A stretch of DNA of 64,000 nt from Parapontixanthobacter aurantiacus (GTDB lineage Bacteria; Pseudomonadota; Alphaproteobacteria; Sphingomonadales; Sphingomonadaceae), in contig NZ_WTYW01000001.1 of NCBI RefSeq assembly GCF_009827635.1, forward strand, positions 452,001 through 516,000. Direction: 5' to 3'. Position 1 is the stretch's first letter. Each line of letters begins with the position of its first letter. The notes under the pieces were generated by a model. The model saw nothing but the letters and a program-made list of their open reading frames with translations. It had not been told where the DNA came from and ran no database searches. Below are positions 57,561 through 63,925 of the stretch, piece after piece. The position numbers and the translations under genes are program-made.

Positions 57561-58088
57561 TCAGTCCTCCGGACCGAGCGAGGCATCGAGGTCGCGGGGC
57601 CGGGCGAAATGCACCAGCTTCCCGCACTCCGGTCGGATGTCCGACCACTTGTCGATGTCGAGTTCGTAGACCGCGAAACTCGCGGTCGGAAACTTGACCT
57701 TCGCCTCGTCGAACAAGGCGTTTTCCGCATTCGGGGCGACGAGGGTAAACAGCATGTCCTGAAGACCCGGATTGTGTCCCGACAACAGGATGGCGCGCGG
57801 ATCGCCGTCCACTTCGGACAGGACTTCGCAGATTGTATCGGTCGAGGCGAGGTAAAGGCGGCGGTCGTAATGCACGTCGCGGCCGGGAAGCGCGCTTTCC
57901 AGCGTATCCTTCACCCGCTGCGCCGGGCTGGCGGCGATCCGGTCGAACCGGATGCCGTGATGCGCAATATGCTCGCCCATCAGCCGCGCCCCGCGCTTGC
58001 CCCGTTCATTGAGACCGCGCTCGAAATCCGCCTTGCGCGAATCGCTCCAGTCGGACTTGGCGTGACGGAGGATGCCGAGGATCTTCAT
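57561..58088 (-). CDS. Histidine phosphatase, SixA-type
   Basis: The 175-residue protein has the phosphoglycerate-mutase-like RHAKS motif at residues 8-12 (LRHAKSDW), SPAQRVKDTLE with a conserved Arg, and the GHNPGLQD second histidine. SixA-like proteins dephosphorylate small phosphoproteins such as histidine-containing phosphotransfer domains. It overlaps the preceding helicase stop by ATGA. Here it may counter a phosphorelay, as the LOV kinase is nearby, but this is only a possibility. Confidence 0.9.
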   Translation of the reverse strand: MKILGILRHAKSDWSDSRKADFERGLNERGKRGARLMGEHIAHHGIRFDRIAASPAQRVKDTLESALPGRDVHYDRRLYLASTDTICEVLSEVDGDPRAILLSGHNPGLQDMLFTLVAPNAENALFDEAKVKFPTASFAVYELDIDKWSDIRPECGKLVHFARPRDLDASLGPED

Positions 58089-61140: not shown

Positions 61141-62775
61141 ATGAGCATGACCGAACTGATCGACGCCGCACGTTCTTCCAAGGCCTGGCCCTTTCAGGAG
61201 GCGCAACGCCTGCTCAAGCGCTATCCCGACGGCACGAAACCCGACGGTTCGCCGGTGCTGTTCGAAACGGGTTACGGTCCCAGCGGCCTGCCGCATATCG
61301 GAACCTTTCAGGAGGTGCTGCGCACGACGCTGGTCCGCCGGGCGTTCGAAGCGCTGATCGGTGCGCGGCCCGAGGACGGCAAGACACGCCTCGTCGCCTT
61401 TTCCGACGATATGGACGGGCTGCGCAAGGTGCCGGACAACGTCCCCAACCAGCAGCTTTTGCAGGACAATCTGCACCTCCCGCTCAGCCGGGTTCCCAAT
61501 CCGTTCGATACCACGCATGAGAGTTTCGCTGCCTACAACAACGCCAAGCTGCGCGAATTTCTCGACCGCTTCGGCTTCGACTATGAATTCGTCAGTTCCT
61601 CCGAGCGGTACAATTCGGGGGCGTTCGACGATGCCCTGCGCAACGTGCTCGCGAACAATCAGGCAATCCTCGACATCATGCTGCCGACGCTGCGCGAGGA
61701 ACGCCGTCAGACCTATTCGCCGATCCTGCCTGTCTCTCCGAGCAGCGGGGCGGTCCTGCAGGTTCCGGTCGAGGTCGTCGATGCCGAGAAAGGGCTCATC
61801 CGCTTTACCGACGGGACCGGCGAGACTGTCGAACAGTCCGCGCTCGGCGGTCAGGCGAAACTGCAATGGAAGGTCGATTGGGCGATGCGCTGGGTCGCGC
61901 TCGGCGTCGATTACGAGATGTACGGTAAGGACCTGACCGACAGCGGTATCCAGTCGGGCAAGATCGCGCGCGTGCTGGGCGGCAACAAGCCGGACGGGCT
62001 CATCTACGAACTCTTCCTCGACGAGAAGGGCGAGAAGATTTCCAAGTCCAAGGGCAACGGGCTGACGATCGAGGAATGGCTCGACTTCGGCACCGAGGAA
62101 AGCCTCGGCTTCTACATCTTCCCGAACCCCAAAAGCGCCAAGCAACTGCATGGCGGCGTCGTCCCGCGCGCAGTGGACGATTACTGGCAGTTTCGCGAAC
62201 GCCTCGCCGAACAGGATCTCGACAAGCAGCTCGGCAACCCGGTCTGGCACCTGCTGCGCGTGAATGGCGGTTACGAGGCGGAAGAGGCACCGGGGGCGGG
62301 CGATAGCCTGCCGGTGTCCTACAGCCTGCTCCTGAACCTCGTCGGCGTGCTGGGGGCGGAAGCGACGGAAGAACAGGTGTGGTCCTATCTCGGCAATTAC
62401 GTCGATGTCGCCGAACCGGACAGCCAGCCCGAACTGGCCGAACTCGTCCGCAGCGCGCTTCGCTACAACCGGACCTTCATCGCCCCGCAACTCAGCCGAC
62501 GGCCTCCGACCGAAAGCGAGAGCGCCGCGCTGGAGGAACTCGATCGTCGGCTTGCCGCGCTCAATGGCGATACCGAGGCGGAGGATATCCAGACCATCGT
62601 CTATGAAATCGGCAAGCGCGAGGAATACGGGTTCGAGAACCTGCGCGACTGGTTCCGGGCGCTGTACGAAATACTCCTCGGTTCGAGCCAGGGGCCGCGC
62701 ATGGGTAGTTTCATCGCGCTCTATGGCATTGAAAACTCGCGGCGTCTGATTAAGAATGCATTAGTCACGACGTAA
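61141..62775 (+). CDS. lysK: Lysine--tRNA ligase, class I
   Basis: This 544-residue class I lysyl-tRNA synthetase is the archaeal type, found in alphaproteobacteria in place of the class II LysS. The HIGH-like motif is PHIGTF at 51-56 (GYGPSGLPHIG) and the KMSKS motif appears as KISKSKGNG at 299-307. The start at 61141 follows an AAGAGGATAACGCC leader. An in-frame open extension upstream exists but is not conserved in character. Normal length; no missing motif. Confidence 0.97.
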   Translation: MSMTELIDAARSSKAWPFQEAQRLLKRYPDGTKPDGSPVLFETGYGPSGLPHIGTFQEVLRTTLVRRAFEALIGARPEDGKTRLVAFSDDMDGLRKVPDNVPNQQLLQDNLHLPLSRVPNPFDTTHESFAAYNNAKLREFLDRFGFDYEFVSSSERYNSGAFDDALRNVLANNQAILDIMLPTLREERRQTYSPILPVSPSSGAVLQVPVEVVDAEKGLIRFTDGTGETVEQSALGGQAKLQWKVDWAMRWVALGVDYEMYGKDLTDSGIQSGKIARVLGGNKPDGLIYELFLDEKGEKISKSKGNGLTIEEWLDFGTEESLGFYIFPNPKSAKQLHGGVVPRAVDDYWQFRERLAEQDLDKQLGNPVWHLLRVNGGYEAEEAPGAGDSLPVSYSLLLNLVGVLGAEATEEQVWSYLGNYVDVAEPDSQPELAELVRSALRYNRTFIAPQLSRRPPTESESAALEELDRRLAALNGDTEAEDIQTIVYEIGKREEYGFENLRDWFRALYEILLGSSQGPRMGSFIALYGIENSRRLIKNALVTT

Positions 62776-62797: not shown

Positions 62798-63925
62798 ATG
62801 GAGCGCGAAGAACGGAGCGATTTGTCTGCACAGAACGTCGTCCCCGAACAGGTCGACGCCGAGTACCCCTCAACTGATTCGATAGGCGAGGGCAACGCCG
62901 ATCCCGGCGATTTGCGCATCGATCCCGCGCAGTTGTTCATCGAGGCGACCGAGCAGACACGCATGGCTCTGTGCGTCAGCGATCCCTATGCCGAGGATTG
63001 CCCGATCATCTACGTGAACGAGGCATTCGTCGAACTGACCGGCTATAGCCGGGACGAGATACTGGGGCGCAACTGCCGCTTCCTCCAAGGAGAGCAAACC
63101 GATCCGCAGGCGGTCGCCAAGTTGCGCGAAGCGGTTTCGCAGGAGCGCGTGCGGGTCGTCGACATATTGAATTACAAGAAGGACGGAACTGCATTCTGGA
63201 ACGCCGTCCATGTCGGACCCGTCTATGGCGAGGACGGCAAGCTCGCCTATTTTTACGGTTCGCAGTGGGACATCACCGATCTCCTGGCGGAGCGCGAGCG
63301 AGCCGATACGAGCGGCGACATCGCGCGCGAAATGAAGCATCGCGCCGACAATCTGTTCTCCGTTGTCATCGCCATCGTGCGGCTGTCTGGGCGAAACGAA
63401 ACCAGTGTCGACCGGCTCGTCGAGAAGGTCACGAGCCGCATTCAGGCCCTTTCAGCGGCGCATCGTGCTTCGAGCACCGAATTGAGTGCGACCGGGGAAC
63501 GGGTCGATCTCTGTGAACTCGTCTGCGAGGTGCTTGCACCCTATCGGACGTCGCGCGAGGATCGGCTGGAAATCGTCGGCTCGAAGACGCCTCTGCCGCG
63601 TCGCTGGGTCACCCCGATCGGCCTGGCCATCCATGAAATGGCTACCAACGCGCTGAAATACGGATCGCTCGGCCAGTCGGAAGGGCGGGTCCATGTCGAC
63701 TGGGAAAGCGACGACGAGCAACTGGTCATTCACTGGATCGAATCGCACGGCCCGGCCCTGCCGAAGACGAATGCGAACGCTGTTAAGGGCGGGGAAATGG
63801 GCACGCGCCTGATGGAGAACGTCCTGCGCGGAGTGGGCGGCAGGATCGATACGACTTTCGCCGAGAGCGGCTTTCGCGCGACGATCACTCTGCCGTTTGA
63901 TGGCGCCGGCAATAGGTCCGGCTAG
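62798..63925 (+). CDS. LOV-domain HWE-family histidine kinase (blue-light sensor)
   Basis: The 375-residue protein has a PAS/LOV domain (about 45-165) with the flavin-binding GRNCRFLQG, in which Cys93 forms the light-induced adduct, the NYKKDGTAFWN stretch and FYGSQWDIT with the conserved Gln156. The kinase half is of the HWE class: EMKHRADNLFSVVIAIVRL with phosphoacceptor His181, N-box HEMATNALKYG with Asn284, and the HWIESHGP motif with Trp313 and Glu315, then GTRLMENVL. No receiver or output domain is fused, so it must signal through a separate response regulator, none of which is next to it. EL346/EL368 of Erythrobacter litoralis are the closest known type. Confidence 0.93.
   Translation: MEREERSDLSAQNVVPEQVDAEYPSTDSIGEGNADPGDLRIDPAQLFIEATEQTRMALCVSDPYAEDCPIIYVNEAFVELTGYSRDEILGRNCRFLQGEQTDPQAVAKLREAVSQERVRVVDILNYKKDGTAFWNAVHVGPVYGEDGKLAYFYGSQWDITDLLAERERADTSGDIAREMKHRADNLFSVVIAIVRLSGRNETSVDRLVEKVTSRIQALSAAHRASSTELSATGERVDLCELVCEVLAPYRTSREDRLEIVGSKTPLPRRWVTPIGLAIHEMATNALKYGSLGQSEGRVHVDWESDDEQLVIHWIESHGPALPKTNANAVKGGEMGTRLMENVLRGVGGRIDTTFAESGFRATITLPFDGAGNRSG

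Follow-up and report, generated by a model that had tools for sequence, protein, structure and literature searches.

Our analysis shows that the gene at positions 62798-63925 of the window (the whole stretch of 64,000 nucleotides that was analyzed, C1:452001-516000, from a 2.9-Mb genome in seven contigs) encodes a LOV-HWE histidine kinase in which the photochemical and catalytic residues are intact. Judged by its sequence, the protein is the ortholog of EL368 from Erythrobacter litoralis, and it is an ordinary, well-placed instance of an already studied EL368-type kinase. The apparent puzzle of an orphan light kinase is removed, given that its ortholog has reported in vitro targets (PMC4438053). 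It is probably a soluble EL368-like blue-light receptor kinase that feeds PhyR and a LovR-like regulator. The features considered here are as follows.

57561-58088, minus strand: SixA-type histidine phosphatase gene (Pfam His_Phos_1), 4.7 kb from the kinase gene
61141-62775, plus strand: ORF that we take to be lysK (lysyl-tRNA synthetase), a conserved neighbor directly upstream of the kinase gene with a gap of 22 nt
62798-63925, plus strand: LOV-HWE histidine kinase gene, 375 aa, predicted EL368 ortholog (ORF, Pfam, 48% identity, clade support)
62936-63280, plus strand: LOV domain, residues about 47-161 (alignment to solved LOV domains, model)
63074-63076, plus strand: codon of Cys93, in the LOV domain
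63263-63265, plus strand: codon of Gln156, in the LOV domain
63329-63583, plus strand: HWE dimerization and phospho-acceptor region, residues 178-262 (Pfam HWE_HK, H-box counts)
63338-63340, plus strand: codon of His181, in HRADN, with Asp184 at H+3
63608-63898, plus strand: catalytic ATP-binding domain, residues about 271-367 (Pfam HATPase_c_2 at residues 271-343, alignment)

The reading frame at 62798-63925 is complete, and Pfam placed a PAS_9 match at residues 65-161 (8.6e-22, above the curated cutoff) and an HWE_HK match at residues 178-262 (4.1e-15; 56.7 bits against a cutoff of 22.8). Asparagine and glutamine residues of a LOV domain contact the flavin, and alignment recovered N92, C93, and Q97 within GRNCRFLQ together with N125, N135, and Q156; the PAS fold, the GRNCRFLQ-type motif, and the Cys, Asn, and Gln expected of a LOV domain are all found in the protein. 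The WxE motif is a mark of the HWE family and is seen here as W313-x-E315, alongside H181, R182, and N185 of HRADN and H279, E280, and N284. The family is also marked by a glutamate in place of the first asparagine of the N-box (PMC12148442), and this glutamate, the His-Arg box, WxE, and an HWE_HK match above the cutoff are found together in the window kinase. The original prediction had named GRNCRFLQ, Cys93, Gln156, HRADN, and WxE as present, which was confirmed by alignment.

Among solved chains, the best match to the window kinase was Brucella LOV-HK (6ph4; 1.4e-53), and EL346 (4r3a) matched it over residues 49-367 with 140.9 bits. An AlphaFold model built from 24 aligned proteins had a mean pLDDT of 82.1, with blocks of 91-98 over residues 51-160. 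The LOV part of the model agreed with the Brucella LOV domain at 1.1 Å rmsd and the kinase part with the Brucella kinase domain (5epv) at 3.6 Å. Given a pTM of 0.57 and an rmsd above 15 Å against the full-length solved LOV kinases, only the single domains of the model are meaningful, and its full-length arrangement is unreliable.

The relationship to EL368 was established through a comparison genome, G238, in which the EL346-type protein matches the crystal construct of EL346 (4r3a) at 346 of 346 residues and two further LOV kinases have lengths of exactly 362 and 368 aa. For these reasons, we read G238 as what is probably E. litoralis HTCC2594 and its kinases as EL346, EL362, and EL368. Identity between the window kinase and the 368-aa protein is 48% (171/359 columns). 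We then examined 119 loci, 94 of which yielded a LOV kinase by a motif and length filter and 25 of which yielded none; after removal of L096, which is identical to L043 after trimming, 93 distinct rows entered a maximum-likelihood tree. The locus set was compiled without L041, L172-L181, and L211, which are shorter copies of L198-L208, without L049-L069, and without those EL362-type matches for which no locus had been made. The window kinase and EL368 fell together in a clade of 16 rows (support 100/95), within which L095 and L206 were placed more weakly (83/89 and 82/79), and a clade of 33 rows containing EL362 (support 100/99) was its sister. EL346 lay on another well-supported branch and did not group with the window kinase. 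A sensor like EL346 or EL368 had been proposed for this gene; the EL368 half of that comparison is borne out by the identity and the clade, and the EL346 half is not, given the separate branch and the presence of a distinct EL346-type gene in the same genome. We searched an even sample of 397 genomes from the family; an EL368-group protein was found in 12 (E at most 3.1e-96; next match, 1.3e-85), and 56 had a match of some kind with E no higher than 1e-70.

The position of the gene is also shared within the clade. The first gene past the window edge is a 2OG-Fe(II) oxygenase gene convergent with the kinase gene, and it is followed by what is presumably a cytochrome b561-type gene. The same order, lysK, kinase, and convergent oxygenase gene, was found in 14 of the 16 EL368-clade members, G238 included, the exceptions being L095 (Jannaschia) and L208. 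We compared this slot with that of 14 genomes picked for having no EL368-type match, and in 11 of these the site is empty, with lysK abutting the oxygenase gene (12-59 nt between the matched parts). The lysK-oxygenase gap is about 0.5 kb in L227, and an oxygenase match was not found in the stretches taken for L222 and L223. A slot that is filled in 14/16 members and empty in 11/14 chosen genomes indicates that, in these genomes, the kinase gene has a fixed site at which it is either present or absent. We considered whether the window gene might be a decayed or photochemically dead copy that is kept by chance, as its status as an orphan paralog and the empty sites of related genomes could suggest. 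This is highly improbable, because the frame is open, the photochemical and catalytic residues are intact, and the slot is kept by clade members whose identity to the window protein is 44-60%.

The original prediction had placed the kinase alone behind lysK, with no response regulator, PhyR, or anti-sigma gene in the window, and this description holds. None of the 31 Response_reg matches of the genome lies within C1:452001-516000, none of the 389 window ORFs matched a purpose-built receiver HMM, and the PhyR gene and the sole NepR match are on contig 6. The adjacent LovR-type receiver gene that characterizes a LovK-LovR pair is absent for the window kinase. The nearest receiver gene encodes a CheY-like protein (L009:11155) and lies about 3.2 kb downstream of the kinase gene on the other strand; we rejected it as a conserved partner, given that, for the other 15 kinases of the EL368 clade, no receiver gene was found in flanks of 4.9 to 7.7 kb on each side. 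The original prediction had remarked on the nearness of the SixA-type phosphatase, and as a hint of a link this did not survive the comparison with other genomes. SixA, a helicase gene, and lysK occur in the order seen in the window in 5 of the 14 genomes picked for lacking an EL368-type match (L220, L222, L223, L226, and L228), SixA and the helicase gene occur in a different order in 2 more (L221 and L224), and a SixA match was not found in the stretch taken for the other 7. SixA of G238 (L204) lies about 5.3 kb away from lysK, on the opposite strand. Because the SixA-helicase-lysK order occurs whether or not a genome has the kinase, the SixA gene is no evidence of a link; we rejected SixA as a partner on grounds of linkage, although it could still act biochemically. 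As a separate observation, a microbial rhodopsin gene lies outside the window, 6.5 kb downstream of the kinase gene (L009:14394-15128, plus strand; C1:522394-523128). Its product is closest among solved structures to Anabaena sensory rhodopsin (1.8e-64) and to xenorhodopsins (4.2e-63). The rhodopsin gene is thus a second gene of photoreceptor type in the neighborhood of the LOV kinase.

The wider genome contains 12 HWE_HK matches, including two LOV-HWE kinases besides the window kinase. The first is an EL362-type kinase at C1:1602582-1603682 (L070:4582-5682), which is 55% identical to the 362-aa kinase of G238 and 43% identical to the window kinase. It overlaps by four bases a small receiver gene that scored 27.7 bits with Response_reg, just below the cutoff of 30.2, and that we call LovR-like on the basis of where it lies and what it resembles. 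The second is an EL346-type kinase (L071:13122-14156), 47% identical to EL346. All three E. litoralis kinase types are therefore found in a second genus, which bears on the question of why a single bacterium would retain three blue-light kinases. A fourth LOV gene, on contig C3, encodes a short LOV protein of 183 aa (L077:1182-1733, plus strand); this gene overlaps the beginning of an ORF of 1151 aa that has an HWE match, and a small receiver gene is convergent behind it. Near the EL362-type kinase, a fasciclin-domain gene was seen in two genera, by Pfam at L070:3378-3950 (plus strand) and by resemblance at L046:3130-3687 (minus strand). The PhyR gene on contig 6 encodes a receiver together with the two PhyR sigma domains, and beside it are a sigma factor gene with Sigma70_r2 and r4 domains, taken as EcfG, and an adjoining CHASE-HWE kinase gene. 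A second PhyR sigma-like match was found outside this locus (C1:675456-675557, plus strand; 32.6 bits against a cutoff of 27). Downstream of four HWE kinases of the genome, a small receiver match lies on the same strand (C1:11222, C1:67410, C2:38083, and C1:1603706). The receiver ORFs near C1:11222 and C1:67410 have a FATGUY-like motif, as does a hybrid protein on C5.

The original prediction had left the output pathway open and suggested the general stress response as a possibility. The question is now largely answered by homology, because in vitro EL368 and EL346 transfer phosphate to PhyR as well as to LovR, while EL362 transfers to LovR only (PMC4438053), and because genes for PhyR, NepR, an EcfG-type sigma factor, and a LovR-like protein are present in the genome outside the window. 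Our model starts from the architecture, residues, orthology, synteny, orphan state, and partner genes that we observed. Blue light would drive formation of a flavin-Cys93 adduct in the LOV domain, and the resulting change would pass through the helix after this domain to the HWE kinase core, leading to autophosphorylation of His181. The phosphate would then be transferred in trans to PhyR, which would draw NepR off the EcfG sigma factor and turn on the stress response. A second recipient would be the LovR-like single-domain regulator encoded next to the EL362-type kinase; this protein would drain or reset the signal. The photocycle, the light-up polarity, and the partners in this scheme are those to be expected from the ortholog and from knowledge of the family. 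LOV kinases have been reported as light-on, dark-on, or without detectable activity (PMC10359499), and an identity of 48% does not settle the choice of partners or the light polarity, since RT-HK is a natural LOV kinase with dark-on logic (PMC12148442) and ME354 photocycles with undetectable kinase activity (PMC10359499).

We counted against direct transfer to PhyR and LovR that the H+3 residue is Asp here and Gly in EL368, that in Caulobacter and Sphingomonas PhyR is reported to be reached through a single-domain regulator and a phosphotransferase, and that FATGUY-like receivers are encoded in this genome. A possible, if tentative, alternative is that the kinase feeds PhyR indirectly, through a FATGUY-type single-domain regulator and then the phosphotransferase-like HWE protein of the PhyR locus. 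Relays of this kind have been published for two alphaproteobacteria, namely, Pak-SdrG-PhyT-PhyR in Sphingomonas, where PhyR is fed via the single-domain regulator SdrG and a phosphotransferase (PMC5898713), and MrrA-PhyK-PhyR in Caulobacter (PMC5964349). Both the FATGUY-like receivers and a putative phosphotransferase, the CHASE-HWE protein adjoining PhyR, are available here; however, EL368 itself transfers to PhyR in vitro (PMC4438053). The kinase could also act chiefly together with a LovR protein that serves as a phosphate sink, in the manner of Caulobacter LovK, so that light lowers PhyR phosphorylation in vivo. Caulobacter LovK-LovR does lower the stress response, and LovK is described as acting mainly as a phosphotransfer protein (PMC5964349), but the LovR-like gene of this genome is linked to the paralog and no EL368-clade row has a receiver gene within 300 nt, and we regard this arrangement as unlikely. 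These readings overlap with one another and with our preferred one, in which the kinase would reach PhyR and the LovR-like regulator directly.

The two sister clades differ in both receiver pairing and the acceptor box. Counted over related rows, which are not independent events, a receiver gene lies within 300 nt of the kinase gene in 27/33 EL362-clade rows and 0/16 EL368-clade rows, and a lysine at H+3 of the acceptor box is found in 33/33 and 0/16 rows, respectively (69/93 rows overall). For the window row, the downstream receiver check was made on the longer stretch L009. The six EL362-clade rows without a receiver gene at this distance are L097, L104, L044, L184, L185, and L189, and for the last four, the flank covered was only about 1.4-1.5 kb. 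L097 and L104 have no receiver gene in about 5 kb on either side and may represent losses of pairing. The row filter demanded an acceptor-like box and left H+3 free, and no EL368-group locus given to the final filter was lost. In the 16 rows of the EL368 clade, H+3 is Asp in 10, His in 2, Gly in 2, Glu in 1, and Arg in 1; the window kinase, with Asp184, lacks the lysine of the EL362 clade. A separate peculiarity of the EL362 clade is the kinase of G032 (L046:1486-2595, minus strand), in which the LOV motif reads GRSCNILQ instead of GRNCRFLQ and the Cys is kept.

These clades, which come mostly from one family, provide an evolutionary frame in which one group of LOV kinases is usually paired with a receiver gene and the other is unpaired and mostly found at the lysK site (14/16). 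We rejected the H+3 residue as the sole determinant of transfer to PhyR, given that EL346 keeps the lysine yet phosphorylates both regulators (PMC4438053). A broader proposal is that, after the split from the EL362 clade, the EL368-clade kinases became a distinct functional subtype, in which the absence of the H+3 lysine (mostly replaced by an acidic residue) and of a cognate regulator would go with retuned transfer or phosphatase activity, making them inputs that reach PhyR outside the strict LovR pairing of EL362. We regard this proposal as speculative and rather improbable. PMC10359499, the one paper in which we looked for this difference, has no occurrence of H-box, HRxxN, or lysine. The H+3 difference between the EL362 and EL368 clades is clean and open to a test with point mutants.

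The window kinase can be compared with several known systems. Caulobacter LovK is a LOV kinase tied to the stress response (PMC5964349), as predicted for the window kinase, but its LovR is encoded in the same locus (PMC4438053), unlike in the case of the window kinase. Brucella LOV-HK is alike in its LOV fold, has PhyR and LovR as partners, and is encoded by a gene unlinked to LovR (PMC4438053); it differs in being a LOV-PAS-HK protein, with an extra PAS domain between the LOV domain and the kinase. EL346, a monomeric protein, likewise combines a LOV domain with an HWE kinase and is an orphan (PMC4438053), but it belongs to a separate branch of the tree. EL368 is given as dimeric (PMC10359499). 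EL362, also a LOV-HWE kinase and a member of the sister clade, differs in its H+3 lysine, its transfer to LovR only, and its linkage to lovR, with which it forms an operon in E. litoralis HTCC2594, where EL368 and EL346 are orphan kinases without a predictable regulator nearby (PMC4438053). EL368 differs from the window kinase in having Gly and not Asp at H+3, and it shares with it the domain order, the length (368 versus 375 aa), the lysK slot, the orphan state, and the absence of a lysine at H+3.
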